33,890 nt of DNA from a virus. Under the pieces are notes generated by a model, which searched no databases, had not been told where the DNA came from, and was given only the letters and a program-made list of their open reading frames with translations. Positions 1,635 to 32,973 of the stretch are shown one piece after another. The stretch's first letter is position 1, and the number at the start of each line of letters is the position of its first letter. The DNA is taken from IMG/VR virus record IMGVR_UViG_3300042860_003287, positions 1 through 33,890 of that record, one strand, 5' to 3'. A program made the position numbers and the translations under genes.

Positions 1635-3129
1635 TATCCGCGATTTCATCGGCCTGCTGAAGCACAGTCGCGGCGACTTTGCGGGGAAGCCTTTCGTCCT
1701 CGAGCGCTGGCAGGACGAATATCTCGACAAGCTCTTCAACACGAAGAAAGCCGACGGCCTGCGGCAGTATCGGACAAGCCTGCTCGCGTTGCCCCGCAAG
1801 AACGGTAAATCAGCCCTCTGCGCCGCCATCGGCATCTACATGATGTGCTGCGACGACGAGGGGGCAGAGGTGATCGTCGCGGCCGGCGACCGCGCGCAGG
1901 CTTCGCTCCTGCACACGGCTGCAAAGCAGTTCGTCGAGGGTTGTCCGTCACTGATGAAGAGATGCCGCATCTACAGAAATAGCATCGTCTTCCCTGAGAA
2001 GAACTCCACGATGCTGTGCATCAGCAGCGAAAGTGCCACGAAACACGGTTACAACCCAAGCTGCTGCCTCATTGACGAAATGCACGTCTTCCCCGACCGC
2101 GAGCTGATCGACGTTCTGGAGACCGGCATGGGTGCCAGAAGCCAGCCGCTGACCATCTACATCACGACGGCCGGCACCGACATGGACGGCCCGTGCTACA
2201 AGGACTGGCAGCGGGCACTCAAGATTCGCGACGGCGTCCTGAAGGACGACTCGTTCCTGCCCTGCATATACGCCGCCGATCCCGAGGACGACCCGTTCAT
2301 CGAGGAGACTTGGAAGAAGGCCAACCCGAACTACGGAATCACGCTAAAACCCGACTATTTCAGGCAATTTTCGGAAAAAGCCAAGTCCTCACCCACCGAC
2401 GAAGTCGTTTTCCGAACCCTCCACTTGAACCAGTGGCAAAAATCGGAAACGAAGTGGATCAGGCACGGTGCCTGGGATGCCAACAACGCTCCGCTCAGGC
2501 CGACGGCGGGGCGGCCGTGCTGGTGCGGCGTCGACCTCGCCAGCACCTTCGATACGACGGCGTTCGTGGCGGTCTGGCCGGACGCCGACGGCACCTACGA
2601 CATCCACGCTCACTTCTTCATCCCAGAGGAGAACGCGATCAAGCGTGGTCGCGAGGACAGGGTGCCGTATCAAGCCTGGGCGAAGGACGGTTTTGTTACA
2701 CTAACAGATGGCGACATAACGGATTACGACGTGGTCCGCGACTACATTCTCTCGTTTTGCGAGAAGAATGCGGTTCGGTCTATTGCGATTGACCGCTGGA
2801 ACGCAGTGCATCTGACGACGCAGCTCACGGCGGAGGGAATCGACGTTAAGCCGTTTGGACAAGGTTTTGCGAGCATGTCAGCGCCGTCGAAGCTGCTCGA
2901 GACGCTGACAATCTCCAAGAAACTGCGTCACGGCGGCAACCCCGTCTTGGCGTGGCAGATGTCGAATGTGCAGGTGAAGGTAGACGACGCCGGGAATATC
3001 AAGCCGACCAAGAAGCACAGTCATTCCACGGCCCGCATCGACGGCGCGGTCTCACTGATCATGGCCCTGGGCATTGCCTCGAGCGAAACCCACGGCAATA
3101 CCGACGAACCAAACCTCATGGTGCTGTAG
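1627..3129 (+). CDS. terL: Terminase large subunit (ATPase-nuclease), Terminase_1 type
   Basis: Motor that pumps DNA into the prohead and cuts the concatemer. The ATPase half has a Walker A-like LPRKNGKS (about 55-62), Walker B CCLIDEMH (146-153) with D150-E151, and a coupling motif ITTAG (179-183). The RNase H-like nuclease half starts at GVDLAS (301-306), with D303 a likely metal ligand, and continues through an AIDRW strand. 500 residues fits the family. The GTG start at 1627 overlaps terS by 8 bases and the gene ends one base before the portal GTG. With the HNH gene upstream, an HK97-like cos mechanism is plausible but not proven. Confidence 0.95.
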   Translation: MVDIRDFIGLLKHSRGDFAGKPFVLERWQDEYLDKLFNTKKADGLRQYRTSLLALPRKNGKSALCAAIGIYMMCCDDEGAEVIVAAGDRAQASLLHTAAKQFVEGCPSLMKRCRIYRNSIVFPEKNSTMLCISSESATKHGYNPSCCLIDEMHVFPDRELIDVLETGMGARSQPLTIYITTAGTDMDGPCYKDWQRALKIRDGVLKDDSFLPCIYAADPEDDPFIEETWKKANPNYGITLKPDYFRQFSEKAKSSPTDEVVFRTLHLNQWQKSETKWIRHGAWDANNAPLRPTAGRPCWCGVDLASTFDTTAFVAVWPDADGTYDIHAHFFIPEENAIKRGREDRVPYQAWAKDGFVTLTDGDITDYDVVRDYILSFCEKNAVRSIAIDRWNAVHLTTQLTAEGIDVKPFGQGFASMSAPSKLLETLTISKKLRHGGNPVLAWQMSNVQVKVDDAGNIKPTKKHSHSTARIDGAVSLIMALGIASSETHGNTDEPNLMVL

Positions 3130-3130
3130 C

Positions 3131-4774
3131 GTGGACAGAGTCGACGAGGAAGTCTCCGATCTGATCGAGCTTCGCGGTAATCTTTCCCGCATTTTCGAGG
3201 AGATTTCCAGCACCCGGCGAACTGCGTCGGGGGTCTCCGTCTCGCCGGAAACGGCCCTGGAATGCACGGCCGTTCTCGCCTGCGTCCGCGTGCTGTCCGA
3301 GTCGCTCGCCAGCCTTCCGTTCAACGTGTATCGGCGGCTTCCCGGCGGCGGCAAGGAGATCGCCGAGGAGCAGCACCTGCACGAGGTGATCGCCTACCAG
3401 CCGAACTCGTGGATGACGGGCTTTGAGTTCCGCGAGTTGATGCAAAGCTGGCTGCTCCTGTGGGGCAACGCCTACGCCTACATCAAGGGCGGCAAGAACG
3501 GCGCGGTGACTGAGTTGATCCCGCTGCATCCGTCGCGGATGGAGGTCAAGCGGCTGACCAACGGCAAGCTGAGGTACTACTACCGAGAGCCCGCGACGCT
3601 GATTCAGCCGACGCCCGACCCGACGGAGTATCGGCAGGACGAGATTTTTCATTTGCGATGGCTCTCGTCAGATGGGGTGACAGGATTTATCCCAACGAGC
3701 CTGTCCCGCGATGCGATCGGTCTGGCGAGAGCAACTGAGCTACACTCCGGCAGCTTCTTCGGGCACGGCGCGCAGGTCGGGACGTACATCGAAACCGATC
3801 AGCCGCACAAGCCAGAGGTGCTCGCCCGGTTCAAGGATCAGTGGAACGATGCCCACCAGGGGCCGGACAAGGCATACAAAACCGTCGTCATGCCGTTCGG
3901 CTTCCACCGGAAGCAGGTCGAGGTCAGAAACGACACGGCCCAACTGGTTGAGACCAGGCGCTTCCAGTTGGCCGAAGTGGCACGGTGCTATCGCGTGCCA
4001 CAGTATTTGATTGGCGACTTGTCTGATGTCCGCCACAGCACCGTGGAGCAGCAGGCGATCGACTTCGTCACGTTCTCGCTCTTGCCCTGGTGCCGGCGGT
4101 GGGAGATGGCGTGCCGGCGAGACCTCGTGGTCGACGACAAGCAGTATTTCTGCCAGTTCGACCTGAACTCGCTGATGGCCGGCGACTACGCGGCGAGGTC
4201 GCAGTTCATTCGGGAGATGGCGAACCTCGGAGCCCTCGACATCGACGAGATTCGCGCTCAGATCGGCTACAACCCGCTCCCCGGCGGCGTCGGGAAGAAG
4301 CGGTTCATTCAGGTCAACATGCAGTTGCTGGAGGCGTTCACGCTTGAGAACCCGACCGGCCAGAAGCCGCAGAATCCCGCTCCCCAGGGCGGCGTTGACG
4401 GGCCGCCGGAACCGACGGTTGGCGATGCCCCCGACGCAGAAGACGCCCCCGACGCCCGCCAGATCGCAGGAGCCGAAGTCGTCTTCAAGACCTCTCTCCG
4501 GCGGCTCGCCGCCATCGAGGCTGACGGCGTCCTTGAGCGACGCAATAAGCCCGAGAAGCTTGCTGCGTGGCTTGATCAAATGACCGGCCGGATGCGGGAA
4601 GAGCTGCGCGAGTCCGCACAGGCTACCGGCAGAGACATCGACAAGTTTGTGGGAACGTGGATGACCCGCTCGCGAGAACTCCTGCTTGAGTGTCATCGCA
4701 GCGGCCAGAAGTACGAATCAGTCACCGAGGACTGGTGCGACAAGCACCTGACGACCGATGCCGCAAGCACCTGA
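3131..4774 (+). CDS. Portal protein, HK97 family
   Basis: Forms the dodecameric channel at the unique capsid vertex and docks terminase and then neck proteins. The opening VSPETALECTAVLACVRVL and the later IGYNPLPGG motif are typical of HK97-type portals. GTG 3131 is chosen because it follows the terL stop directly and precedes the conserved region; an ATG at 3074 would lie inside terL. After the core, a Pro/Ala/Asp-rich linker (about residues 413-445) leads to a roughly 100-residue charged helical extension not needed for the usual fold. That extension might interact with the next gene product, which overlaps it by 17 bases. 547 residues is longer than the HK97 portal. Confidence 0.93.
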   Translation: MDRVDEEVSDLIELRGNLSRIFEEISSTRRTASGVSVSPETALECTAVLACVRVLSESLASLPFNVYRRLPGGGKEIAEEQHLHEVIAYQPNSWMTGFEFRELMQSWLLLWGNAYAYIKGGKNGAVTELIPLHPSRMEVKRLTNGKLRYYYREPATLIQPTPDPTEYRQDEIFHLRWLSSDGVTGFIPTSLSRDAIGLARATELHSGSFFGHGAQVGTYIETDQPHKPEVLARFKDQWNDAHQGPDKAYKTVVMPFGFHRKQVEVRNDTAQLVETRRFQLAEVARCYRVPQYLIGDLSDVRHSTVEQQAIDFVTFSLLPWCRRWEMACRRDLVVDDKQYFCQFDLNSLMAGDYAARSQFIREMANLGALDIDEIRAQIGYNPLPGGVGKKRFIQVNMQLLEAFTLENPTGQKPQNPAPQGGVDGPPEPTVGDAPDAEDAPDARQIAGAEVVFKTSLRRLAAIEADGVLERRNKPEKLAAWLDQMTGRMREELRESAQATGRDIDKFVGTWMTRSRELLLECHRSGQKYESVTEDWCDKHLTTDAAST

Positions 4775-5231
4775 AGGCGTGATTGACGCCCTCCAAGCCT
4801 CCGTTCGGCTGCATCTGCTGGCGATTGAGAACTACCAGTCGCAGGCGGAGCATCTCGACCGCTGGGGGTACGGCAAGCTGGCAGCCGGCTGCCGCGCTGA
4901 CGCCGAGGAAGAGCGGGGCCACCTGCACGAGGTGCAGTCCCGGCTCGAATACTACGACGTTCAGCCGACCTACGACCACGACCAGCCCGATTGGCCCAGG
5001 CACGACTACGAGGGCATCCTCGCGGCGAATCTTTCGCTGGAAACGGCTGCGGCGGAGGCCGAGAGGGCCGGGGTGCTGGCGTGTCGGGCGGCCGGGGACG
5101 AGATATCGGCATCGGCCTTCGTCATGCTGCTTGAGGGCAGCGAAGAGGCGATCGCCAAAATCGAAGCAGTGCAGCGTGTGATCGAGCAGATCGGTCTGGA
5201 TAACTACCTCGCGAATCAGGTGACGGCATGA
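4758..5231 (+). CDS. Bacterioferritin-like protein in the head operon
   Basis: 157 residues, the length of a bacterioferritin subunit, and recognisably of that four-helix family: LLAIENY (20-26), WGYGKLA (36-42), an ExxH motif E52-R-G-H55, NLSLE with E95, and the C-terminal IGLDNYLANQ (145-154). By hand alignment E52, H55 and E95 match diiron ligands, but the first-helix glutamate is H19 and the last-helix E and H are S128 and A131, so the ferroxidase site looks half lost. The haem methionine that follows the ExxH glutamate in bacterioferritin is R53. ATG 4758 overlaps the portal by 17 bases, and the stop overlaps the protease start by 4 bases. Role unknown: iron binding, cage or partner assembly, or a structural reuse of the fold. 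Confidence 0.75.
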   Translation: MPQAPEGVIDALQASVRLHLLAIENYQSQAEHLDRWGYGKLAAGCRADAEEERGHLHEVQSRLEYYDVQPTYDHDQPDWPRHDYEGILAANLSLETAAAEAERAGVLACRAAGDEISASAFVMLLEGSEEAIAKIEAVQRVIEQIGLDNYLANQVTA

Positions 5232-6901
5232 GCAACGAGATTGAGCGGCGCACGACGGTTTCGGACGCGACGGTCGAGTACCGCGACATGGGGAACGGCG
5301 AGAAAAAGCCCGTGATTTCGGGCTATGCCGCCGTCTTTAACGCCGAAAGTCGCAACCTCGGCGGCTTCGTCGAGACGATTCACCCGAATGCGTTCGACGA
5401 AGTGCTCGCCGAGAACCCCGATGTCATCGGTGTGTTCAATCACGACCGCAATCTGCTCCTCGGCCGCACCGGAAACGGGTCGATGAAGCTCACGAAAGAC
5501 CCGTATGGGCTTCGCTACGAGATCACGCCGAACGAAAACACCTCCATCGGCCGCGACGTGATCGAGTGGGTGAAGGACCGGACGGTTGTCGGGTCCAGTT
5601 TCGCCTTCGCGATCAAGCGAGATGGTGGCGATTCGTGGTCGACGGACAACCAGCGTGGCATTCGCAGGCGTGAAGTGAAAGCGATCGGCCTGCTCGAGGA
5701 CGTTGGGCCTGTGGTTCGGCCTGCATATGACTCCTCCAGCGTGGTTGTGAGCCGCCGAGCCATCGAAATGGCCCTCGGCGAGTCGTTCAGGCCCATCCAG
5801 ACGATGGCGAATGCGTCAAAACGAGGTCTGAAGCTGGCTCAGAGGCACGAAAACATCGATTCTCGCCTCCTGTGCATCGCCGAACGAGTCGCGAACCGCG
5901 AAATCGTCAGTGTCGAGGAGGTTTCGTACCTTTCCGGCGTCTACGAGCGGTGTTTGGCGGCGAAAGTGACGGGTTGGTCGGGCTCGCCGGCCTGGATCGA
6001 GTGGCAATTGGCCGGCGGCGACGCTGGCGAGAAGTGGGTGGATCGGCGTGCTGCCTCATCGTCCGATGAGACAGCCCCGTCTGTGGACATCCCGGCTGAA
6101 ACCGCCCCTGTTTCCGAGGAAAGAGCCGCCTCCGACGTGAATCTGACCCCGACGGCGGGCATGGCCGCCGCCGCGAAGCGCGGTCTGGCCCTGCACGAGG
6201 CTGGTCGGTCGGGCGACGGCCTCAAGCCGGAGACGGTGGCCCGTGCCGGCAAGATCGCGGCTCGCGAGGAGCTGACGCCTGAGCACGTTCGCGAGATGCG
6301 GGCGTGGTTCCGCCGCCACAAGGTCGACAAGAAGGCCGGCTGGTCGAACAAGGGCGAGGAAACCCCTGGCTACACCGCCTGGATGCTCTGGGGCGGTGAC
6401 CCGGCGTGGCGGTGGAGTGAGGCCAAGGTCGCGCAGATGGAACGCGAGAGCGGCAAGCGAGACATCGGCGAAGACGGCGAGGCCATTGAGGAAGAGTACG
6501 GCAGCGTCCTGTCGGCTGCGAACCTCACCCTGGCCGAGTCGTATGAGGGCATTGCCGAGGAGTACGGCCCCTGGAGCCAGAACGACGCTCACTACATGAC
6601 CGACAATCCGTTCGCCAGGGATGGCGTGAAGTGCAGCAACTGCGTCTTCTTCGAGGGCGAAGAGGGCCGGTGCTACATCGTTCAAGGTGCCATCGCGGCC
6701 GACGCCGTGTGCAAGCTGTGGATCATTCCCGAGGAGCGTATGAGCCAAGAAGAAAAGAAGCCGGAGCCTGCTCCGGTTGAGGAAAAGCCCGCCGAGGACA
6801 TGCGTGCGGAGCAGGAAAGCGTCGATATCGCTGTGAAGCTCGCGAACCTGAAGGCGACAATCCTTCGGACTCAGTTGCACGGCGCACGTCAGGGTCAGTA
6901 G
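5228..6901 (+). CDS. Prohead protease with duplicated C-terminal domain and HiPIP-like cysteine motif
   Basis: Residues 1-185 are an HK97-type (U35) maturation protease: SGYAAVF near 31-37, FNHD with H72, GSSFAF with S124, and EDVGPVVRPAY with acidic D158 near the third catalytic position. It should cleave capsid N-termini during maturation. The remaining 370 residues are unusual. Two related domains (about 193-273 and 311-400) share an A-rich KRGL opening, a helical middle and a W...W..GGD..W ending. A C469xxC472...C482...C495 motif then resembles high-potential iron-sulfur proteins. A charged tail (505-557) closes it. ATGA-type overlap with the ferritin-like gene. The extension may act as scaffold; metal binding is inferred from the cysteines only. 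Confidence 0.85.
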   Translation: MSNEIERRTTVSDATVEYRDMGNGEKKPVISGYAAVFNAESRNLGGFVETIHPNAFDEVLAENPDVIGVFNHDRNLLLGRTGNGSMKLTKDPYGLRYEITPNENTSIGRDVIEWVKDRTVVGSSFAFAIKRDGGDSWSTDNQRGIRRREVKAIGLLEDVGPVVRPAYDSSSVVVSRRAIEMALGESFRPIQTMANASKRGLKLAQRHENIDSRLLCIAERVANREIVSVEEVSYLSGVYERCLAAKVTGWSGSPAWIEWQLAGGDAGEKWVDRRAASSSDETAPSVDIPAETAPVSEERAASDVNLTPTAGMAAAAKRGLALHEAGRSGDGLKPETVARAGKIAAREELTPEHVREMRAWFRRHKVDKKAGWSNKGEETPGYTAWMLWGGDPAWRWSEAKVAQMERESGKRDIGEDGEAIEEEYGSVLSAANLTLAESYEGIAEEYGPWSQNDAHYMTDNPFARDGVKCSNCVFFEGEEGRCYIVQGAIAADAVCKLWIIPEERMSQEEKKPEPAPVEEKPAEDMRAEQESVDIAVKLANLKATILRTQLHGARQGQ

Positions 6902-13741: not shown

Positions 13742-16700
13742 ATGGCAAACGGCTACCTCGGCAAGATCAGTGCAGTTGTCTCGGCGAGCACGGGAGACTT
13801 CGACAGCAAGCTGGCGAAGTCTGCGAAAGAAGTCGCCAACTTCGCCAGCCGGGTGCAGGGCAACCTGACATCGGCGTCCACTCAGGCTGCTAGGGCTCTG
13901 GAGGGTATCTACACGCCCCTCCAGAAAGTCGAGCGGTCTCTGCGGGCCGCCGAGTCGATGAAGCTATCGTTCAAGGGCTTCAAGGGTCTCATCGGAGACG
14001 TGGACGCCCTTCAGCGGCGGCTGCAAGGTCTCAACGAGCGACAGATCGACATCGTCCTGAAGACGAGCGGAATGAAGAGCATCACGGAATTCCGCGATGC
14101 CATCAACGGCCTTACGTCGAAGGACGTGGAGATCATCACCCGCGTCGGCGGCCTGGAGAAGATCAACGAGCTTCGTGAGCAGATCAGGTCGTCGCCCGCT
14201 GTTATGAAGGTGGCGGCGGATGTCGAATCGGCCAAAGATCGGATTCAGGCGCTGAAGCAGGAGATCAAGTCCGCGGCCGACAGCGGTGGCAAGGTTACCG
14301 TCCCCGTCGATGACGCCGCGGTGCAGAAGCTCGAGGGGCGGCTTGCCAAGGCTACGGCGGCCTTGAAGAGGTTGCAGGATCAGGCCGCAGCCGGCGGCGG
14401 CGGTTCGCGCGAACTCGACGCGATCAACGAACAACTTGATGCGCTGAACAGCAAGCGGGCATCCCTTGAGGCGAAGGCCATTCGCGTTCGCGGTGATGAA
14501 CGAGAGCTTCAAAAGGTCCGCGCGGTGATCGACGGCATCTCGGAGGAGATCGATTCGCTTGAAAAGAAGCAGGCCAGGGTCGCCAAGATCAGTGTATCGA
14601 CAGACGAGTTCAAGGCACAGATCGCCGAGGCGCAGGACAGGGTCGACAGGCTGACGGCCGCTCTGGAGAAGGCCAAGGCCAGCGGGCGCGTCGTCGACAT
14701 CAAGGCGAAGTACGACGAGCTGACAGAGGCAGAAAGCACGCTCGGCAAGCTGAATCGCCAACTTGGCAAAAAGGTCACCGCTGAGTTCGGCGTGAACGTC
14801 GACATTCAGACGCTTGACGATGTCGCCAAGAAGGCCGAGGCCGCGGGGGCGGTACTCGGCAAACTGCCTCGCGTCATGGAAGAGCTTGGCCGCTCTGACC
14901 TGACGGCCGCGACGACGAAGATGCGGCAGATGGTGTCTCAGTCGGAGGAGCTGTCAAAGCCTATCGCGGCAGCCACGCAGCAGTTCGGTACGCTGACCAG
15001 AGAGGTTCAGGCTGGTTTCCTGCCTGCGCTCTCAAGCGTGCAAAACGATCTTGAGTCGCTGGCAAGACTGATCGATGACGGCGTCGCTCCCGCCAAGGCA
15101 ATTGAGGCCACGTTCGTCGGCATAAAGCAGGATGTCGATCAGGTCGTGGCGTCGGTCTCGCGATTGGCCGAGGCGTCGGCGAAGGTCGGGAAGATCAAGA
15201 CCGGCAGGGAGCTTTTCTTTGACCAGCCCGGGCTGTCCGAGTCTTTGGACCGCGGAGCGGCTATCGGCGACAAAGCAGCGGCGCTGCCGGCCTCGGCGAT
15301 TCAGGCAAACCCGAGGATTGTCGAGTCGCTCGTGGAGGTCAACAGGCTTTCGCAGGAGGCCACGGTTCGGTACGCGAAGCTGCAAGCAGTGATTGCTGAT
15401 AGCCTCCCGACGGGGCCAGCGCAACTGTCGCTTGATCTTGTTATCAAGAAGCTCGGCGAGGCTCAGGAGGTCGCGGAAAAAGAAATCAGGGTCACCATTG
15501 ACACCGCCGAGGCGCAGAGAAAGGCTGACGAGATCACGGCGAAGATCACGTCAATGCGCGAGCGCGCCGCCTTCGTCATCACCGGCCGTCCGCAGAACAT
15601 GGAGCAGGCAGACGGCCGCCGAGGGCAGCTAGAAGGCGACATCGTCGGCCTAGACCGCGCACAGCGTCAGAACTACAAGCCGCTCCTAGAAGACGCGGCA
15701 ATGGCGCGACAATTGGGCGACTTGGACAAGTACAACGACGTTCTTGACCAGATCGCATTCAAGGTCGCCCAGGACAAGAAGTTCAACCTCACTACCGCAG
15801 ACGCCAAGAAGAAGACGGATGACCTGAAGGCCAGCATCGACGCCCTCAAGGAGTCCGCCGCGTTCCAGTTCACGGGACTGCCGCAGAACAGGGCGCAGGC
15901 CGAGGGCGAGCTGCGTAGCACCATCGCCAGAGCCGGCAGCCTCGACCCCGCCGCCTTGGCGAGGGTGACGACCGCCAAGGACGCGGCCATCGCGGGGCTT
16001 GGTAACGCGGACTTCGGCGCGCCGCTGATCAAGGTGTTCGTCGATCTCGTCGACAAGGAGTTGCAGGCGAAGAAGGCGGCAGATGACCTCAAGGCTGCGA
16101 TGGCGGCCATCGGAGACGGCGCGAATCCGAGCCAGCCCATCGATATCCTCAAGAAAAACCTTGCCGAGGCCAAGGCGGCGGTCGCGAAACTTGACGGCCC
16201 GATGAAAGCCATCGGCGAGAAGAACATCGCCAAGATCGAGACGTTCGTCGGCGCGAATGCTGGCAACGAGGCGGCTGCGAGGCTTGCCGGCCAGCGTGCG
16301 GGCCAGTTGCGGGACGCAGCGATCGCGGCGGCACCGCCGCCGAAACCGCCGAAACCGCCAGTGGACGTTCTTGGAGCAGACTTCGGCACAGCCGCTCGTG
16401 GATACGCCAACCTCCAAGCTAATGTCGTATCGCTCCAGACCAGCCTTGAAAAGCTGCCGACGCCGTTGCAGGCTCAGTTGATTCCGGCGATCAACAAGGT
16501 TCGAGACGCATTTAAGGGGCTTGGCCCATCGTCAACTGCGGCGGAGATCGATGCAGTCGCAAAGAAGGTCGCTGGCCTTGAGCGGGCGCTGACCAGAACG
16601 CAGCAGGCCGCCAAGCTCGGCGGCACGCTTGGAGACGCGCTGAACACCGCGGCGTTCACTCGCACAGAAAAGCAGATCGGATTCATCAGGGCCAAGCTGC

Positions 16701-19700
16701 TGGACATCGGGGCGGCGGCTAGCGGCCCCGTCGCCGACGCCTTCAACAAGTACGCAGCTTTCGTCGAGAGCGCTGCCAGGAAGGGTACCATTGGTCTCGC
16801 CTCCACGAAGGAGCAGGCCGACCAGCTCGCAGAGAAGATTGGAGAGGCTGCCCTTGCCGCTGGCTTGTTCAAGAGCAAGGCAGAAGCTGCTTCATTCGTC
16901 AAGGGCATCGGCGACGTTGGTCGAGCCGGCGCTGACAAGTTTGCCCTCGGTCTTAACCAAGCCATATTCGCCGTAGACGACTTCATGTCTTCTACCGGCG
17001 GCCTTGAATTCAAGCTTCGCGCCGTCAGCAACAACATCACCCAGCTTGGTTTTATAGTCGGCGGAACGACGGGCCTGTTCGTCGGCCTGGGTGCCGTGAT
17101 CGCGGGGCAGGCGGCCGTCGGGCTCATTAAGTGGGCGAACAATGGCCGGTCGGCGGAAGACCAGACGAAGGCGCTCAACGAAGCCCTGGCACGACAAAAG
17201 AGCCTTGTCGAGGATTTGGCGCAGGCGTTCAGGTCGCTTGGCGACGCGATGTCGCGCGGCACCTTCTCTGCCGGCGGCGAGCAGGCCGCAGAGTTCTCGA
17301 GGCAGATGGAGGACATTCGGAAGAAGCAGAACGAGGCGATCCGAAATAACGTAGCCGACTTCGATCCCGAAGTGATCAAGGAGCGGGCCGAGCAGCGGAA
17401 GCTCCAAGATGATATCGAAAAGAGCACAGACGTTGGCGAGATCGTCGGGCTTCAGAGGCAACTGGAGGACTCCAGGCGACGCGAGCGGGACGCCGCCGAC
17501 CGCGCCGTCTCCGCGCCGCCGCCAGACTTTGGTCAGATTCAGAAAAGGTTGCGGGAGTCTCTGGAAGCACAGGCCGTGGCCGCCGCGAGAGACGAGGGAG
17601 CGAGTAATCCCGACGACCCATTTGCTCCCGCTCGAGCAGCCGCGCCGTTCATGGAACGGGCTGCGTCCGTTCCGTTGGCGGGGAGCGTCAGCGAGGCGAG
17701 GGAGCAGGTTGATGCTCGCATCAAGGAACTGTCGACGCAGATCGAAGGCGGGCTTTTGACATCAAACGAGGCGGCAACGGCAAAAAAGGAGATCGCAGAA
17801 CTCCGTCTTGTCCTCGGCTCCCTGAGCGCTCCGCTCCTCAGGGAAATCAATAGGACTGCTAACGAAATCGCCGAGTCCTCCCGCGGCCCCGCGGCCCAGA
17901 TTCGCCAAGCCCAAGAGGACGTTGCGGAGGCGATTCGCAGGGGCGTGCCGAATGCCGCAGCGTTCCAGCGTGAGCTTGATGCGAATGCCAAGAAGCTGAA
18001 AGAAGCCTATGTATCGCTCGAGGAAGCCCAGAAGGAAACCGACCCTGACAAGAAGCGGGCCAAGGTAGACGAGGCCAAGGCGAATATCGACCAAGTCGAG
18101 GCAGAGGGGGCTGGCATTCGCCTCCGCTCTCGCGAAACGCGGCTCGGCCGCACGTTTGGCGGCGAGCGGACGACGGCCGCATTGGCGTCGATTCAAGGAA
18201 ACGAGCGGTTTGCAGGCGACGAATATAGCATTAGAACGACCGCGTACATTGAGGCCGCAATCGACCGAGAGATTGAGGCTCGCGGGCAGCTCGAGGTTGC
18301 GACGGCAAAGGGGTCTGACGCAGAAATCAAGGCCGCAGAGGCAGAGCTTGAGGCCGCCCAGAGCGCCTCGGAGGCCGCTGCGGCATTCGCCGAAGCAGCC
18401 GTCGCCGTCGAGGCCGCGCTGACCCGCATTCGCAAGGTCGGCGAGTCTGCGGTGCAGCGATCCGAGCAAGGGGCAGACGCCGCACAGAAGGCGTTTGAAG
18501 AGAACCCCCTGCGGGCTGGCAGCGGCCAGTCTCGCGACGATGCGGAGCGAAGGTTAATCGACGACCGCGCTCGCGTGGCGCAGGCTCAGGTGGATTTGGA
18601 CATTCGGCGAGGCGTGGTGCAGAACGACCCGCGAATGCAGGGCATCAACAAAGAGTTTGAAGCCATTACGCAGCGGCGGGCAGACCTTGAGGCCAAAGCA
18701 AGGATTGGGTCTCTTGATCCGGCTGAACAGAATGAGCTTGACGCAGCCAGGAAGCGCGAGATTGAGCTTATGCGCCAACGCGAGCACCTCGCCCGCAACC
18801 TCACAGAGGCAGAGAGAAAGCAGCTTGACGCCATTAACAACGGCATCGCTGCCCGCGAGAAGGAGCTTGAAAAGAGCCGGCAGCGGGCCGCCGAAGACCC
18901 GACCTTCAAGAGGCGAATGGACGCCGCGAACCAGATCATCGCCGACAGCGAGCGTCAGGCGAATGAGGCCCAGGAGAGGTACATCAACAACCCGACCGAG
19001 CAGAATCGCACAGATCGTAACGCGGCCGACGCGCAACTTCGTGCTGACCGCGAGCTAGCCCAGAAGCTGCAAGACGATCTGGACAACAAACGAAAGGAAA
19101 TAGAGCAAGACCCGCTGTTCGCAGCCAACAACAGGTTGATCGCGGCGAATGACGAGAGACTCGCGGCGCTTGCCGAAAAAGAGGCGAGCGTTGGGCTGAC
19201 GCAGAGAGAGAAGGACGAGCGGATTGCGAGGCAAAAGGACAGCCGCAGAATGCTCGCCGAAAGAGACTTGATGATTGCCGACGGCACTCGCGATGAGCAG
19301 AAGGCCATCGACATCGAGCGGATGATCCAGAACGACCGAGACCGCGCCCTGCGAGGCCGCGATCTCGGCATGACTGACCGCGAGCGTTTTCGCAAAGAAT
19401 TCACCGAGGGGGCGGGTGCGGACATTAACGCCAATGCCCTCGATATGCTGCTCAAGGGCGAGAACCCGCAAGCCTTCCTCCGCCAAGCCATCCAGAACCA
19501 GATGGAGCAGGTCGCCCCGATGCTCCAGCAGTTTCAAGAGGAGCGGCAGAACGCCCTGCTCCAAGGCCCGTCCCGCGCCGCCCTCAACGTCTCCGACGTG
19601 TCGACGAGCCAGGGCCAGAGCGAACTCAACAGGCTTCTCCGAGGCGACGACTCGGCGAAGGATGTGAATCTCGCGGAGCTGCGGAAGCAGACGGACAAGC

Positions 19701-19753
19701 TGGACGAGGTCGTTAGGGCGATCAAAGAAGGTAACCCAGGAGTCCTGCTGTAA
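13742..19753 (+). CDS. Tape measure protein, 2003 residues
   Basis: Sets tail length and is ejected ahead of DNA. Mostly charged coiled coil and Ala/Lys/Glu-rich helix. A hydrophobic block at residues 1104-1131 (FIVGGTTGLFVGLGAV...LIKW) is the usual membrane-inserting segment. Two internal duplications are visible: units of about 97 residues near 606 and 703 (RERAAF.ITG.PQN and KESAAF.FTG.PQN), and units of about 162 residues near 1574 and 1736 (SE..A..AQ......NP). At about 0.15 nm per residue the tail would be near 300 nm, very long for a siphovirus. No peptidase or lysozyme domain recognised. ATG 13742 follows the chaperone; the stop overlaps the next ATG (TAATG). Confidence 0.93.
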   Translation: MANGYLGKISAVVSASTGDFDSKLAKSAKEVANFASRVQGNLTSASTQAARALEGIYTPLQKVERSLRAAESMKLSFKGFKGLIGDVDALQRRLQGLNERQIDIVLKTSGMKSITEFRDAINGLTSKDVEIITRVGGLEKINELREQIRSSPAVMKVAADVESAKDRIQALKQEIKSAADSGGKVTVPVDDAAVQKLEGRLAKATAALKRLQDQAAAGGGGSRELDAINEQLDALNSKRASLEAKAIRVRGDERELQKVRAVIDGISEEIDSLEKKQARVAKISVSTDEFKAQIAEAQDRVDRLTAALEKAKASGRVVDIKAKYDELTEAESTLGKLNRQLGKKVTAEFGVNVDIQTLDDVAKKAEAAGAVLGKLPRVMEELGRSDLTAATTKMRQMVSQSEELSKPIAAATQQFGTLTREVQAGFLPALSSVQNDLESLARLIDDGVAPAKAIEATFVGIKQDVDQVVASVSRLAEASAKVGKIKTGRELFFDQPGLSESLDRGAAIGDKAAALPASAIQANPRIVESLVEVNRLSQEATVRYAKLQAVIADSLPTGPAQLSLDLVIKKLGEAQEVAEKEIRVTIDTAEAQRKADEITAKITSMRERAAFVITGRPQNMEQADGRRGQLEGDIVGLDRAQRQNYKPLLEDAAMARQLGDLDKYNDVLDQIAFKVAQDKKFNLTTADAKKKTDDLKASIDALKESAAFQFTGLPQNRAQAEGELRSTIARAGSLDPAALARVTTAKDAAIAGLGNADFGAPLIKVFVDLVDKELQAKKAADDLKAAMAAIGDGANPSQPIDILKKNLAEAKAAVAKLDGPMKAIGEKNIAKIETFVGANAGNEAAARLAGQRAGQLRDAAIAAAPPPKPPKPPVDVLGADFGTAARGYANLQANVVSLQTSLEKLPTPLQAQLIPAINKVRDAFKGLGPSSTAAEIDAVAKKVAGLERALTRTQQAAKLGGTLGDALNTAAFTRTEKQIGFIRAKLLDIGAAASGPVADAFNKYAAFVESAARKGTIGLASTKEQADQLAEKIGEAALAAGLFKSKAEAASFVKGIGDVGRAGADKFALGLNQAIFAVDDFMSSTGGLEFKLRAVSNNITQLGFIVGGTTGLFVGLGAVIAGQAAVGLIKWANNGRSAEDQTKALNEALARQKSLVEDLAQAFRSLGDAMSRGTFSAGGEQAAEFSRQMEDIRKKQNEAIRNNVADFDPEVIKERAEQRKLQDDIEKSTDVGEIVGLQRQLEDSRRRERDAADRAVSAPPPDFGQIQKRLRESLEAQAVAAARDEGASNPDDPFAPARAAAPFMERAASVPLAGSVSEAREQVDARIKELSTQIEGGLLTSNEAATAKKEIAELRLVLGSLSAPLLREINRTANEIAESSRGPAAQIRQAQEDVAEAIRRGVPNAAAFQRELDANAKKLKEAYVSLEEAQKETDPDKKRAKVDEAKANIDQVEAEGAGIRLRSRETRLGRTFGGERTTAALASIQGNERFAGDEYSIRTTAYIEAAIDREIEARGQLEVATAKGSDAEIKAAEAELEAAQSASEAAAAFAEAAVAVEAALTRIRKVGESAVQRSEQGADAAQKAFEENPLRAGSGQSRDDAERRLIDDRARVAQAQVDLDIRRGVVQNDPRMQGINKEFEAITQRRADLEAKARIGSLDPAEQNELDAARKREIELMRQREHLARNLTEAERKQLDAINNGIAAREKELEKSRQRAAEDPTFKRRMDAANQIIADSERQANEAQERYINNPTEQNRTDRNAADAQLRADRELAQKLQDDLDNKRKEIEQDPLFAANNRLIAANDERLAALAEKEASVGLTQREKDERIARQKDSRRMLAERDLMIADGTRDEQKAIDIERMIQNDRDRALRGRDLGMTDRERFRKEFTEGAGADINANALDMLLKGENPQAFLRQAIQNQMEQVAPMLQQFQEERQNALLQGPSRAALNVSDVSTSQGQSELNRLLRGDDSAKDVNLAELRKQTDKLDEVVRAIKEGNPGVLL
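15557..16110 (+). repeat. Two ~97-residue internal repeats in the tape measure
   Basis: Residues from about 606 and from about 703 repeat the pattern AAF.(I/F)TG.PQN..QA(D/E)G followed by a charged helix and a K-rich A(D)DLKA segment. The end of the second unit is approximate. Confidence 0.55.
18461..19430 (+). repeat. Two ~162-residue internal repeats in the tape measure C-terminal half
   Basis: Units beginning near residues 1574 and 1736 share SE(Q/R).A..AQ......NP, an R.DRE/RA....Q segment, a QDP/NDP element and a long DERL/RADLE AKE helix. The end of the second unit is approximate. Confidence 0.55.
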
Positions 19754-26302: not shown

Positions 26303-26677
26303 ATGGCAAACCCAAACATCAACAACGCAAGCACGATCCTCGCGAATAATAATCAGGTCTCGCTTGGGTCGACGGCAGCGACCTCTCTGGTCAGCAACGC
26401 GGTGGATAGCGGCAAGCTTCTTCTGGTCGACTCCGTCATCGTCGCTAACGCCGACCCGTCAGTCGCCGTGTCGGTCACGGTGACGAGGTACGACGACGCC
26501 GCAAACGTCGGCACGCCGTTTCACATCGCCTATCAGATTCCGATTCAGGCCGGTCACAGCCTCGTCGTGATCGACAAGACTTTTGGATTCGGGCTTCTCG
26601 AAAACCAAAGTCTGTATGTCGCAGCGGCGGTCGCCAACAAGCTGACAGTCGACGTGAACTGGAAGGAGGTCTTCTAG
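26303..26677 (+). CDS. Small beta-sandwich fibre-associated protein
   Basis: 124 residues, no cysteine, with strands LLLVDSVIVANAD, VSVTVTRYDD and an end LYVAAAVANKLTVDVNWKEVF. This pattern is widespread in small phage structural proteins located between baseplate and fibre genes. AGGTGG lies upstream of ATG 26303. It ends on the next GTG by a TAGTG junction. Probable adaptor or fibre tip part. Confidence 0.55.
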   Translation: MANPNINNASTILANNNQVSLGSTAATSLVSNAVDSGKLLLVDSVIVANADPSVAVSVTVTRYDDAANVGTPFHIAYQIPIQAGHSLVVIDKTFGFGLLENQSLYVAAAVANKLTVDVNWKEVF

Positions 26678-29600
26678 TGGCGAGGCTGGATAGACTAAGC
26701 GATCAGGGTTGGAACTCGATCATCAGTGCCTTTGCACCCCCCGCGCCGACTTCGCTCACGGTGGCTGGCGGCGACGGCTCGGCTACGTTGTCGTGGGCTG
26801 CTCCTGCCACGATATCTCAGTTGCCTATTACGGATCACCAAGTCCAGTACAGCGCCGACGGCGTTTCGTGGACGACGTTCTACGACCAAGCTGGCGGCGC
26901 GGCGACCGCCGTCGTGACCGGCCTCACCAGCGGAAGTTCGTACTTCTTCCGGGTGCGGGCGGTCAACAAGGCTGGCTTCGGGCCTTACGCTTCGACGACG
27001 GTCGCCGCACTCATCGGCCTTCCGCCCGGTGCGCCGACGAGCTTGACGGCGACGGCTGGCGAGCGGCAGGTGCAACTATCTTGGGTTGCTCCAGCCAGCA
27101 CAGGCGGAGTCGCGATCTCGGACTACACGATCGAGCAGAGCGTCGACTCTGGCGTGACGTGGACCGCAGTGACTCGCCCCTCGGCCTCGACGGCGCTGGG
27201 CTTCACCGTCACCGGCCTCGCTGGTCAGACGGCGTATCAGTTTCGCGTTCGGGCGGTTAACGGCATCGGGCCGGGGGCGTGGTCAAGCACAGCAGCCGCC
27301 ACGCCCGTGTCCTACGACGACAACTGGGACGACGTTGCCCTGCTCCTGAAGATGGACGGCAGCGGGACCACGTTCGTGGACTCGTCCGTGAACAACACGG
27401 TCATCACGTCTCTTGGTGCGACTCAGTCCACGACTCAAAAGAAGTGGGGGGCGAAAAGCGCTGACCTGCCGACAAGCAGCAACTACCTCACCGTCGCCAA
27501 CGGTCCCAGCACCGCCCTGACTGGCGCGTTCACGATCGAGTTCTGGGTCTTTTTCAAAGCCGCGCCGACGCGAGAACTCTACCTGTTCCACGGTGCAAAC
27601 AACAGCACCGAAGGCAGGAACATGAGCTTTCTCACGACATCCTCCAACGGACAAGCGCTGCGATACGGCAGATCGTGGGTGGCGCAGCTAAGTGCGCCTT
27701 CGCCGGTGCAGTTTCAAGCCGCCCGCTGGTATCACATCGCCGTGGTCCGCGAGGCTGACTTTCGCATCCGCCTGTTTGTCGACGGAGTTCAGATCAACCC
27801 GCAAACGTCTGCGGACGTGTGGAGCGGTTCGGCTGCTCTCTCTGGAAGGCTCTTCGTCGGCTACCCAGCCCGCTCGCCCGTCGCCTTCATCGACGAGTTC
27901 AGGGTCACGAAGCGAGCGAGGTATTCGGCGAACTTCACTCCGCCCTCTGAGCCATTCCCGGTCGCAAAGAGGCCGCTGGCCCCCGACTCGCCCGTGACAG
28001 TGACGGCGACCGCCGGAGACGGGCAGTTGTCCGTCTCATGGGCGGCTGTGACTGGTGCCACTGGCTATGTCGTCGAATACCAGCGAGATGGCGGCGAGTG
28101 GGAGTCTGGGGGCAGCGTGTCTACGACATCACGCACGATCACCGGACTTGCAAACGGCGAGACATACACAGTGCGTGTCGCCGCCGTGAACGCTGGCGGG
28201 CAGGGGGTGTGGATCACCAGCACTCCCGTGACTCTTCTCACGCCACCCGCCCAAGTCTCCGGCCTGATTGCTGCCGCTGGACACTTGCAGGCATGCCTCT
28301 CTTGGTCGGCACCTGACGGCGACGTGACTGACTACACTGTGCAGTACAAAAGCGGGCCTAGCTGGCAGACCTTCTCGCACCCCGCGTCGACGAACACGTT
28401 CATCACAGTAACCGGGCTAACCAATGGTGTGAGCTACGACTTCCGCGTGGCTGCAACCAACGGACAATATACCGGCGTGTATTCAAGTGTCGCTACGGCT
28501 ACGCCGTCTCTGGCTTTGCCAGAAGCACCGACATCAGTGACGGGCGTATCCGGCAACGGGCAGGCGACTCTGAGTTGGACGGCACCTGCGAACACAAGCT
28601 GCCGCGTCCTGACCAACTACATCGTCTCCTACAGTGCAAACTCCGGCAGCACATGGACGGACCTCACGCCGCAAGCTGCGTCAGGTGTCACATCGACTGT
28701 CGGCGGACTCACGAACGGCACGAGCTACATCTTCCGAGTGGCGTATCAGTCGTCTTCCGGCACCGGGCCTTGGTCGGCATCCAGTGCAGCCGTCACGCCG
28801 AGCGGCCCGCCCAGCCCGCCAGCCAGTGTTTCCGGCACTGCTGGTGATGGCGAAGTAGTCGTGTCGTGGGTAGCTGGCAGTACCGGCGGCACGCCGGTCT
28901 TGGACTACCTGCTGCAATACAGCACCGATCAGTCCTCGTGGACGCCGATCGACGACGGCCAGAACACTTCTGGTTCGTATACAGTCACGGGACTAACAAA
29001 CGGCACGGCTTATTATTTCCGAGTCTCTGCCCGCACGGCGGTCGGCGACAGCACTCCGACGCAGTCTTCTGCCGTCACCCCTCGCGGCGTGCCGAGTTCT
29101 CCGGGGACTCCCAGCGGCACGGCAACTTCTGGTCAGGTGGCTCTCGCGTGGACTGCGTCGTCTGCCAACGGGTCTGCGATCACGGGGTATACAGTCGAGT
29201 ACACGGCATCTGGTGGCTCCCCCCAGACGGTCGAGACTGGTTCTGTCAACTCCTCGTACACCGTCACCGGCCTGACGAACGAAGTGTCGTACACGTTCCG
29301 CGTTCGAGCGACCAACGCAGTCGGTGTCGGCCAGTGGAGCGACGCATCGTCGCCGGTTTTGGTGCAGGGTCTGCCGGGAGTGCCGACTAACCTCAGTGGC
29401 ACGTCAGACGACGGAAGCGTTTATCTCTCGTGGGTGGCACCTGCCGACGACGGCGGTCCTGATATCACGAGCTACACGGTCGAGTACACCCCGGCGGGTG
29501 GGTCTGCACAGACGGTAGCCGCCTCCTCCAGCCCGTACACGCTGAGCGGGCTGACGAACGGCACTAGCTACTCGATCCGAGTTGCCGCGAACAACCCGGT

Positions 29601-32600
29601 CGGCAGGGGCGGGTACACGGCGGAGATCACTCGCACGCCAGCCACTGCGCCGGGGACTCCAACTGGCCTGACCGCAACTGGCGGAAGCGCATCCGGCAGG
29701 CTCGTGCTTGCGTGGACCGCTCCCAGCAACGGCGGGTCGGCGATCACGGGATACACTGTTGAGTACACGCCGTCTGGCGGGTCCGCTCAGACTGTCAGCA
29801 CTGGTAGCACGTCGGCCTCGTTCAATCTCAACGGCCTCACGAACGGCACGTCCTACAGCGTGCGAGTGCGTGCGGTGAATGTCGTTGGAGCGGGCGGGTA
29901 CAGCACAGCCGCAACTGGCACACCGGGTCTTGTTCCCGGCACTCCCACCAGCCTGATCGGCACGATCGGAGACGGCAGCGTCGATCTCTCGTGGACCGCA
30001 CCTGCCAGCGACGGCGGGGCCACGATCACGAACTACACCGTCGAATACACACCGGCAGGTGGTTCTGCCGCGACCGTGACTGCGACAGCAAGCCCGTACA
30101 CGCTGACCGGCCTGACCAACGGCACGAGCTACTCGATCCGAGTTGCCGCAAACAACGCGGTTGGAAGAGGCGAGTACACGACGGCGATCGCTCGAACTCC
30201 ACAAATCGCAGTACCCGGCGCTCCGACGGGCTTGACGGCAACCGGCGGCAGCGAGTCTGGCAGGCTTGTGCTTGACTGGATCGCGCCCTCGGTGGCGGGC
30301 GGGTCCGCGATCACGGGATACACCGTCGAGTACACACCCTCGGGCGGCTCTCCTCAGACCGTCGACACAGGCAGCACCAATACGGTTTACAACCTTGACG
30401 GCCTGACGAACGGCACTTCATACAGCTTGATGGTTCGGGCGGTGAACGCGGGCGGCGCTGGAAACTACAGCGAAGCTGCCTCCAGCACGCCTTTCACTGT
30501 CCCCGGCGTTCCAGCCAACTTGAGCGGCACCACAAGCGACGCGAGCGTTGCTATTTCGTGGGACGCCCCATCAAGCAATGGCGGCTCCACGATAACAAAC
30601 TACACGATCGAGTACACGCCGTCGGGTGGTTCGGCTGTGACGGTGACGGCGGCGTCCAGCCCATACACTCTGCCTTCACTGACCAACGGCACGAGCTACT
30701 CGATCCGAGTCGCCGCAAATAACGCAGCGGGTCGTGGCGGGTACACGACGGCAATCAATCGCACCCCCGCCACGACGCCCAGCGAGCCGACAGGACTCAA
30801 TGCCACTGGAGGTGGCACTGCGGGCAGGCTGGAACTCTCGTGGACAGCACCGTCCAGCAACGGCGGGGCCGCGATCACCGAATACACAATCGAGTACACG
30901 CCTTCAGGCGGCTCGCCTGCGACGGTCAACACTGGCAGCAATTCGACATCATACAATCTTGACGGCCTGACAGGCGGCACGACCTATAGCGTCCGCGCAC
31001 GGGCTGTGAACGCCGTCGGGTCGGGGGGATACAGCACCGCCGCAACCGCGTCGCCAGTCTCCGCTCCGGGCGCACCCACGAGCCTTCAAGGCACGATCGG
31101 AAACGGCAGCGTCGCCCTGTCGTGGACCGCTCCTGCCAGCGACGGCGGCTCCGCGATCACGAACTACACCGTCGAGTACACGCCGTCAGGTGGCTCCGCT
31201 GTGACGGTGACGGCGGCGTCCAGCCCATACACTCTGCCTTCACTGACCAACGGCACGAGCTACTCGATCCGAGTCGCCGCGAACAACGCGGTTGGCCGAG
31301 GCTCGTACACGACGGCGATCACTCGCACGCCTGCCACAGTACCTGCCAGTGTCGTGAATGTGACCGTCACGAGCGGAACAGCCTCGGGCAGACTCGCGCT
31401 GAGTTGGACCGCGCCTTCAAGTAACGGCGGTTCCGCGGTCACGAGCTACACGATCGAGTACACGCCGTCGGGTGGGTCGGCCGTGACAGTCAACACCGGC
31501 AGCGCAGCAACATCTTACAACCTTGACGGCTTGACGAACGGGACGCTGTACGGCGTTCGAGTGCGGGCGGTGAACTCCGTAGGGTCGGGTGGCTACAGCG
31601 ATTCATTCTCTGGAACACCAGCAACCGTGCCGGGATCGCCGACATCGCTTGCAGGCACTGTCGGAAACGGCAGCGTTGCCCTGTCGTGGACCGCGCCGAC
31701 GAGCAATGGCGGCTCCGCGATCACGAACTACACGGTGGAGTACACGCCTTCAGGCGGCTCCGCCGTGACAGTGACGGCGGCATCAAGCCCGTACACGCTG
31801 ACAGGACTAACCAACGGCACGAGCTACTCGATCCGAGTTGCCGCGAACAACGCGGTTGGCCGAGGCTCGTACACGACGGCGATCAGCCGCACGCCTGCCA
31901 CAGTACCTGCCAGTGTCGTGAATGTGACCGTCACGAGCGGAACAGCCTCCGGCAGACTCGCGCTGAGTTGGACCGCGCCCAACAACGGTGGTTCAGCCAT
32001 CACAGGCTACACCATTGAATACACGCCCAGCGGCGGCTCTGCGCAAACCGTCAGCACTGGCACAAGCGCGACCTCCTACAACCTTGACGGCTTGACGAAC
32101 GGGACGCTGTACGGCGTGCGAGTGCGGGCGGTAAACGCTATCGGCGCTGGAGGCTACAGCGATTCATTCTCTGGAAAACCGTTCACTGCGCCAGACTCGC
32201 CGACAGGGGTGTCGGGAACTCGCAGCAATGCTTCCGCAAGCCTTTCATGGGCTGCGCCATCAAACAACGGCGGAAGCGCTGTGCAAGACTACGTTGTCCA
32301 ATACTCCTCGGACGGCGGGTCCAACTGGACTACATTCAGCGACGGCTTTGCCGAATCAACCGGAACGACAGTCACTGGCCTCACGAACGGCGTTGAATAC
32401 GTCTTCCGCGTGGCCGCGATCAATGCCGCAGGGCAAGGGGCGTGGTCGGCGCTGTCGGGAGGTGTAACCCCAGAAGATTTGACGTATCGCCTGATACCAC
32501 AGATGACCTCCATGACCGCGCCATCCGGCGAAGTGTCGTTTCATGAATATGCTTTTCCGGGGTGGCGTACCTCGCAGTGCGGAGGAGGCGGGAGCGAGGA

Positions 32601-32973
32601 ATTCTGGCGTGTCTTTGATCAAGGCTGCGGTGGGATGCAGGTGCGAGCGGCCGCTAACGTGTCGCCGCTCAGGTGGCTGCAATACGCATTTCCTGAGAAC
32701 CAGAAATCGTGGGCTGGTGGCTACCGAGTCAAGACAGGCGATGCCGCCGGTACTTTCGGGCCGAACAGGATATTTCTCTCTGGTAGCAATGACGGCGCGA
32801 CGTTCCAAATGATTGACGAGCGAGTCGGCTTGGCGTGGTCTGACAACGAGACAAAGACGTTTACATTTGCAGCACCCGCCAACTACAGATATTGGCGGTG
32901 GCAGTTCGTGGTTGACAACCCAGTTCTCACCGACGTTCGCGTCGGCGACATTCAGCTACTGCCGCCACAGTGA
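26677..32973 (+). CDS. Giant tail fibre: 18 fibronectin III domains, LamG-like domain, discoidin-like tip
   Basis: 2098 residues. Two FN3 domains (about 20-210) are followed by a concanavalin A/LamG-like domain (about 211-431, with FTIEFWVFF and RWYHIAVVRE), then sixteen more FN3 domains (432-1934) and a C-terminal F5/8-type (discoidin-like) carbohydrate-binding domain from about 1935 (LIPQMTSMTAPSGE... YRYWRWQF). Domains 8-17 alternate between two subtypes with an exact 188-residue period. The architecture of repeated stalk plus sugar-binding domains indicates host-surface attachment. GTG 26677 overlaps the previous TAG. No signal peptide or membrane segment. Confidence 0.9.
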   Translation: MARLDRLSDQGWNSIISAFAPPAPTSLTVAGGDGSATLSWAAPATISQLPITDHQVQYSADGVSWTTFYDQAGGAATAVVTGLTSGSSYFFRVRAVNKAGFGPYASTTVAALIGLPPGAPTSLTATAGERQVQLSWVAPASTGGVAISDYTIEQSVDSGVTWTAVTRPSASTALGFTVTGLAGQTAYQFRVRAVNGIGPGAWSSTAAATPVSYDDNWDDVALLLKMDGSGTTFVDSSVNNTVITSLGATQSTTQKKWGAKSADLPTSSNYLTVANGPSTALTGAFTIEFWVFFKAAPTRELYLFHGANNSTEGRNMSFLTTSSNGQALRYGRSWVAQLSAPSPVQFQAARWYHIAVVREADFRIRLFVDGVQINPQTSADVWSGSAALSGRLFVGYPARSPVAFIDEFRVTKRARYSANFTPPSEPFPVAKRPLAPDSPVTVTATAGDGQLSVSWAAVTGATGYVVEYQRDGGEWESGGSVSTTSRTITGLANGETYTVRVAAVNAGGQGVWITSTPVTLLTPPAQVSGLIAAAGHLQACLSWSAPDGDVTDYTVQYKSGPSWQTFSHPASTNTFITVTGLTNGVSYDFRVAATNGQYTGVYSSVATATPSLALPEAPTSVTGVSGNGQATLSWTAPANTSCRVLTNYIVSYSANSGSTWTDLTPQAASGVTSTVGGLTNGTSYIFRVAYQSSSGTGPWSASSAAVTPSGPPSPPASVSGTAGDGEVVVSWVAGSTGGTPVLDYLLQYSTDQSSWTPIDDGQNTSGSYTVTGLTNGTAYYFRVSARTAVGDSTPTQSSAVTPRGVPSSPGTPSGTATSGQVALAWTASSANGSAITGYTVEYTASGGSPQTVETGSVNSSYTVTGLTNEVSYTFRVRATNAVGVGQWSDASSPVLVQGLPGVPTNLSGTSDDGSVYLSWVAPADDGGPDITSYTVEYTPAGGSAQTVAASSSPYTLSGLTNGTSYSIRVAANNPVGRGGYTAEITRTPATAPGTPTGLTATGGSASGRLVLAWTAPSNGGSAITGYTVEYTPSGGSAQTVSTGSTSASFNLNGLTNGTSYSVRVRAVNVVGAGGYSTAATGTPGLVPGTPTSLIGTIGDGSVDLSWTAPASDGGATITNYTVEYTPAGGSAATVTATASPYTLTGLTNGTSYSIRVAANNAVGRGEYTTAIARTPQIAVPGAPTGLTATGGSESGRLVLDWIAPSVAGGSAITGYTVEYTPSGGSPQTVDTGSTNTVYNLDGLTNGTSYSLMVRAVNAGGAGNYSEAASSTPFTVPGVPANLSGTTSDASVAISWDAPSSNGGSTITNYTIEYTPSGGSAVTVTAASSPYTLPSLTNGTSYSIRVAANNAAGRGGYTTAINRTPATTPSEPTGLNATGGGTAGRLELSWTAPSSNGGAAITEYTIEYTPSGGSPATVNTGSNSTSYNLDGLTGGTTYSVRARAVNAVGSGGYSTAATASPVSAPGAPTSLQGTIGNGSVALSWTAPASDGGSAITNYTVEYTPSGGSAVTVTAASSPYTLPSLTNGTSYSIRVAANNAVGRGSYTTAITRTPATVPASVVNVTVTSGTASGRLALSWTAPSSNGGSAVTSYTIEYTPSGGSAVTVNTGSAATSYNLDGLTNGTLYGVRVRAVNSVGSGGYSDSFSGTPATVPGSPTSLAGTVGNGSVALSWTAPTSNGGSAITNYTVEYTPSGGSAVTVTAASSPYTLTGLTNGTSYSIRVAANNAVGRGSYTTAISRTPATVPASVVNVTVTSGTASGRLALSWTAPNNGGSAITGYTIEYTPSGGSAQTVSTGTSATSYNLDGLTNGTLYGVRVRAVNAIGAGGYSDSFSGKPFTAPDSPTGVSGTRSNASASLSWAAPSNNGGSAVQDYVVQYSSDGGSNWTTFSDGFAESTGTTVTGLTNGVEYVFRVAAINAAGQGAWSALSGGVTPEDLTYRLIPQMTSMTAPSGEVSFHEYAFPGWRTSQCGGGGSEEFWRVFDQGCGGMQVRAAANVSPLRWLQYAFPENQKSWAGGYRVKTGDAAGTFGPNRIFLSGSNDGATFQMIDERVGLAWSDNETKTFTFAAPANYRYWRWQFVVDNPVLTDVRVGDIQLLPPQ
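29371..32190 (+). repeat. Five tandem 564-base FN3 domain pairs
   Basis: Ten FN3 domains fill exactly 2820 bases, five units of 564. In each unit the first domain has SSPYTL...YSIRVAANN.VGRG and the second TGG...GRL.L...YNLDGLTNGT...VRVRAVN. Units 4 and 5 are almost identical at DNA level: 31246-31415 versus 31810-31979 differ at about four positions. Confidence 0.85.

Follow-up and report, generated by a model that had tools for sequence, protein, structure and literature searches.

An optional phage gene at the portal-protease locus encodes a bacterioferritin homologue with a probably rebuilt metal site

The stretch of DNA analysed here (the window, 33,890 nucleotides) contains on its + strand an open reading frame with an ATG start at positions 4758-5231, which encodes a protein of 157 residues related to bacterioferritin (Bfr). 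The local gene order is TerS-TerL-portal-[Bfr-like]-protease-major capsid protein, the flanking genes being assigned by PHROG and Pfam. The portal gene (3074-4774, + strand, reading frame as listed) shares its final 17 bp with the Bfr-like gene, and the prohead protease gene (5228-6901, + strand) overlaps the end of the Bfr-like gene by 4 bp. The protease carries a Peptidase_S78 domain at residues 21-180, followed by a long C-terminal extension. An earlier note on this DNA had described a 157-residue bacterioferritin-like protein lying between portal and protease with tight overlaps and bearing the landmarks WGYGKLA, ExxH (E52-R-G-H55), NLSLE and IGLDNYL..Q; this description of the locus is correct. 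Elsewhere in the window, two very long + strand reading frames at 26677-32973 (2098 aa) and 13742-19753 (2003 aa) are, judging from their position, probably tail genes.

The Pfam Ferritin family (PF00210) matches residues 9-144 of the protein with E=6e-11 and 42.9 bits, which is above the gathering score of 24.5. In a phmmer search of the PDB, 48 of the 48 entries among the matches listed are bacterioferritins or ferritins, aligned over nearly their full length with E-values from 1.8e-11, and a search with the family profile reaches E-values down to 7.7e-22. The Bfr equivalog model of NCBIfam (TIGR00754) is matched by all 38 aligned relatives (best E 4.1e-18), and the identity to cellular Bfr is about 24-28%. 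The AlphaFold2 model, computed from the 38-sequence family alignment, has a mean pLDDT of 95.6 and a pTM of 0.89; it consists of helices A-D and a short helix E (residues 8-35, 39-65, 84-111, 115-145 and 147-152). The top Foldseek matches of this model in the PDB are Bfr structures with a TM score of about 0.94. By these matches, the homology to Bfr is not due to chance, and the predicted structure has the four-helix ferritin fold. The HMM search and the structure prediction, which the earlier note had proposed as checks with the absence of a ferritin fold as the refuting outcome, both bear out the bacterioferritin-like assignment. PHROG gave no match to the protein, and membership of a known phage protein family was therefore discarded.

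Comparison with E. coli Bfr shows that three of the six di-iron ligands, including both ligands of helix D, are replaced. His19 (4812-4814, + strand) occupies the position of Glu18 and is a histidine in 141 of 142 distinct phage relatives, the remaining row being gapped. In the segment Ser128-Glu129-Glu130-Ala131 (5139-5150, + strand), Ser128 replaces the bridging Glu127 and is always serine, and Ala131 takes the place of His130, where the relatives have serine, alanine or glycine. The ligands E51, H54 and E94 are retained as E52, H55 and E95. The first two form the ExxH motif Glu52-Arg-Gly-His55 (4911-4922, + strand), and Glu95 (5040-5042, + strand), which is E, D or V in relatives, is not strictly conserved. 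Arg53 lies at the position of the haem ligand Met52, where relatives have R, Q, H, L or F. The alignment thus confirms the previous suggestion that the di-iron site is half lost, with H19, S128 and A131 at ligand positions. Judged by its sequence, the protein is a Bfr homologue, yet it falls outside the functional Bfr family, because it scores 52.6 bits against the TIGR00754 cut-off of 125.55, half of its di-iron ligands are replaced and the haem methionine is missing. These substitutions support the loss of the classical ferroxidase centre. The E52-H55 pair together with the invariant H19 and S128 suggests a site for one metal ion where Bfr has two, although the invariant histidine and glutamate residues could instead be structural. 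A further set of polar residues (H32, R35, R81, H82, D83 and E64, E102) is invariant in the phage proteins, where Bfr mostly has non-polar or other residues; they might form a second site or a network of salt bridges.

The family to which the protein belongs is large. The window protein as the sole query found 58 loci in IMG/VR, a family profile found 230 stretches encoding a relative, of which 80 were kept, and a second profile, with a divergent relative as its lead sequence, gave 207 matches, of which the 80 kept represent another clade on contigs of up to about 238 kb; all of these are counts of contigs, some of which may have been found by more than one scan. As search patterns, the scans relied on conserved peptides near HxxRWGYxK and QIGLDNYL, to which the first scan, but neither of the two profile scans, added MLLEGSEE. 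The residues H19 (with one gapped row), H32, R35, E52, H55, R62, E64, R81, H82, E102, D114 and S128 are invariant in 142 distinct phage sequences, and the invariance at H32, R35-Y38 and G146-L151 is partly due to ascertainment because the scan peptides cover these residues, whereas H19, E52 and H55 were part of no scan pattern. In 37 cellular Bfrs, mostly from alphaproteobacteria, the corresponding pattern is E18-E51-(M/R/L)52-H54-E94-(E/T/A)127-H130, with E18, E51, H54, E94 and H130 kept in all 37. Isolate phages searched by tblastn with two members of the family, the window protein and the relative at locus L058, yielded no member of the phage Bfr-like family. The one weak match to the window protein, MT835709 (E=0.6), was rejected as a member: it reads FELT, DEMKD and RDEETH, keeps E18, E127 and H130, has Asp at position 54 and lacks the phage signature.

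The partial loss of ligands and the low identity to cellular Bfr might be taken as signs of a host bfr gene that was captured recently and is now decaying. This explanation is already contradicted and hardly credible. In the tree, the phage sequences form a single group whose stem measures about 2 substitutions per site; the support of the nodes is low (0.48 and 0.69), and long-branch effects on the grouping are therefore possible. The long stem and the uniform residue signature, found on hundreds of carrier contigs, disfavour recent capture. Decay of the gene is rejected on two grounds: the 142 relatives show no variation in the replacement residues, and pairwise dN/dS among relatives is 0.07-0.21. 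Of the "degenerate iron binder" proposed previously, the loss of the classical ferroxidase centre stands and the degeneration does not.

The residues that hold the Bfr cage together are largely kept. The Bfr 24-mer is stabilized by E128-R61 and E135 contacts, the single mutations E128A or R61A reduce it to dimers, and E. coli Bfr without helix E forms dimers only (PMC3179174). In the window protein, the inter-subunit salt-bridge partner Arg61 corresponds to Arg62 (4941-4943, + strand; role from PMC3179174), which is invariant, and Glu128 corresponds to Glu129 (within 5139-5150, + strand). Among the phage relatives the R61 position is kept in 142 of 142 sequences, the E128 position in 141 of 142, and the E135 position in 70 of 72 and 68 of 74 sequences of two subsets. 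The short C-terminal helix E is retained in the AlphaFold2 model (residues 147-152; 5196-5213, + strand; role from PMC3179174). Formation of a cage is thus plausible, but its assembly could differ from that of E. coli Bfr, because the residues N23, R30 and Y114 of the two- and three-fold interfaces are not conserved in the phage family.

Among loci of the window's lineage that are long enough to judge, almost every one has the gene between portal and protease, so that the synteny search called for in the earlier note was positive for one large lineage. A scan with the portal protein as the query, which is free of any bias from the Bfr-like gene, gave 80 loci: 34 carry the gene, in 42 the portal gene is followed directly by the protease gene, and 4 are undecided. 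In one locus where the gene is absent (L140), the portal protein ends in ...HLAAESTDQIGLDNYLVNKVQE, which is the C-terminus of the Bfr-like protein joined in frame (L140 6869-6910); read from its sequence, this fusion is the scar of a gene deletion. The start of the protease at L129 (MSQPLD) was considered as a second scar and is ambiguous, since its codons overlap the portal end. A search for PF00210 in 15 records chosen mainly for the absence of the gene found nothing in 14, and the sole match was in a record that carries the gene (L188).

Other members of the family are found in other genomic settings. In one type of locus (L114) the gene lies between helicase and methyltransferase genes, at two loci (L033, L090) it is near an integrase, and in large phages it stands beside dehydrogenase, glycosyltransferase and sigma-factor-like genes. 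At the large-phage locus, which may or may not belong to a head module, a gene matching the head maturation protease family phrog_94, and weakly also ATP-dependent protease families, is situated about 3 kb away, and the remaining neighbours are without an assigned family or are glycosyltransferases. A search with the T4 portal in 10 large records gave nothing above the cut-off. In L228 and in record G327 (229 kb) the gene adjoins a phrog_7595 protein, a dehydrogenase, a glycosyltransferase and a sigma-factor-like gene, with a rIIA homologue on the same record. In the gene tree, the helicase-region group is nested inside the head-module family, beside one subgroup, with a support of 0.98. Identities of the Bfr-like and portal proteins are only moderately correlated (rho 0.40, 47 loci), which suggests exchange. 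The 42 relatives with an intact head module and no gene, together with the L140 scar, rule out a required head component. The idea of structural reuse, in the form of a needed part of the head, is disfavoured by these close relatives and by the presence of the family beside helicase and methyltransferase genes and in unrelated large phages. The gene looks like an optional, actively maintained accessory.

The C-terminal extension of the neighbouring protease contains a HiPIP-like module at residues 461-510 (6608-6757, + strand), in which four cysteines (Cys469, 472, 482 and 495; spacing C-x2-C-x9-C-x12-C) are invariant in relatives. The Pfam HIPIP family (PF01355) matches the module weakly in 18 of 18 relatives (best E=4.7e-4; 17.2 bits for the window against a cut-off of 22), the top three PDB matches of a profile of the module are HiPIPs, and its AlphaFold2 model has a pLDDT of 46. 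Among complete proteases, the module accompanies the Bfr-like gene at 25 of 29 loci and is present at 8 of 39 that lack the gene (p=8e-8, with relatedness ignored); a search of records from the other genomic settings did not find it. The module is tied to the Bfr-like gene by context only. A highly speculative extension would be that a viral class of ferritins with a single-metal His-Glu-His-Ser site forms cages which, together with the HiPIP-like iron-sulfur module of the protease, handle iron or some other metal during particle assembly; if so, metal or redox state would enter into the maturation of the head.

By combining these observations, it is possible to propose a tentative description of the protein. 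Probably it is a cage subunit derived from Bfr, accessory to the phage and not a required part of the head, in which the metal site has been rebuilt. The family would have split from cellular Bfr long ago and then lost both the ability to ligate haem and, in the di-iron centre, the second iron position. A new site formed by His19, Glu52, His55 and Ser128 would have become fixed, and two features of the 24-mer, helix E and the salt bridge between subunits, would have been retained. In the lineage of the window, the protein is presumably made late, because it would be translated in tandem with the portal and the protease. Each subunit would most likely bind one metal ion by two histidines and one carboxylate. 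The protein would then work on the iron of the infected cell, forming cages of its own or mixing into those of host Bfr, and iron would be buffered, or diverted from its normal storage in ferritin, during the making of particles. We infer metal binding, cage assembly and the place and time of action, and the account as a whole, an optional gene whose product handles iron inside the infected cell, is the one to which we incline, at somewhat less than even confidence. Action on iron in the infected cell fits an accessory gene selected in several settings better than a required structural role does. A simple link to iron demand is not apparent, because a search of 25 phage records found no iron-release partner Bfd, and the iron-dependent class I RNR R2 turned up in just 2 of 28. 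The commonest setting of the gene, one fixed place in the head module, tells against this account, as it would also suit a role in the virion.

Such a role, in which the Bfr-like subunit would be a minor structural protein or a metal cargo carried inside or on the surface of the head close to the portal (Ferrojan Horse or encapsulin-like), is somewhat unlikely. It would agree with the constant portal-Bfr-protease order of one large lineage, with the overlap of the genes, with the co-occurrence of the HiPIP-like module, and with the detection by mass spectrometry of the ferritin-like gp217 of the Vi01-like phage Sajous1 (PMC10892097). More than half of the portal-selected relatives, however, do without the gene, one of them after its deletion, and elsewhere the family occurs away from head modules. 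Vi01-like phages, moreover, infected tonB and feoB mutants to about the same degree as the wild type, their infection being independent of TonB or FeoB (PMC10892097). These phages are the one relevant precedent for the Ferrojan Horse idea. Virion iron in this sense is unsupported for the phage of the window.

One of the two forms that action on iron in the infected cell permits is a saboteur subunit, which would co-assemble with host Bfr and dilute or block its ferroxidase and haem functions, so that iron would stay soluble for the phage. The retention of the cage salt-bridge residues alongside the loss of the ferroxidase and haem residues points in this direction, as does the solved structure of a heteropolymeric Bfr (9iig), but the altered two-fold and three-fold residues do not, and this form taken by itself is unlikely. 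It is also quite improbable that the four-helix scaffold has been reused free of metal, for example as a chaperone or an adaptor for the portal or the protease. The lost ligands and the constant neighbours in one lineage would suit such a scaffold, whereas the invariance of the remaining E52 and H55 and of the new H19 and S128, and the family members away from portal and protease, would not.

The closest known system is bacterioferritin itself (TIGR00754; E. coli 1bcf, Achromobacter 5zur), the best structural match, with which the phage protein has in common its length, the five-helix fold, the ExxH and WG motifs, the R61/E128/E135 salt-bridge residues and helix E, but from which it differs by E18H, E127S, the change of H130 to S/A/G and the absence of haem Met52. 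Two kinds of subunit per cage are known from mixed-subunit bacterioferritins (Shewanella SoBfr12, 9iig), but the phage subunit has neither an intact di-iron centre nor the haem methionine, and its co-assembly is hypothetical. Sajous1 gp217, compared by its description alone, is likewise a ferritin-like protein of a tailed phage, detected by mass spectrometry and discussed in terms of the Ferrojan Horse (PMC10892097), although it belongs to different phages and to a tail-side operon. An auxiliary bfr gene reported from a vOTU of Vrana Lake, also compared by description alone, is likewise virus-encoded and under purifying selection, but it is said to come from Thermoproteota and to be likely functional (PMC10904782). 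Dps domains of uncultured Caudovirales in BFVD, some of them named prohead protease, tie the ferritin fold by name to head genes, but they are Dps-like, with 9-14% identity and weak structural matches. Three BFVD proteins named prohead protease (A0A6J7XDU5, A0A6J7WIS1 and A0A6J7WPK9, uncultured Caudovirales) are Foldseek matches to the ferritin-like model, as if protease and ferritin-fold domains had been joined.

Links between phages and iron have so far been mostly hypothesis. Two findings lay beyond the reach of the earlier note: the fixation of the substitutions throughout a large family of viral proteins, and the optional presence of the gene at the portal-protease locus. On hundreds of uncultured phage contigs, the fold of an iron-storage protein is kept and its catalytic centre is swapped for a single fixed alternative. 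Matched relatives that carry the gene and others that lack it, among them the one with the deletion scar, provide a natural comparison, and the fixed residues H19, E52, H55 and S128 direct attention to the identity of the metal, cage formation, mixing with host Bfr and presence in the particle. The gene may let the phage handle the iron of its host.
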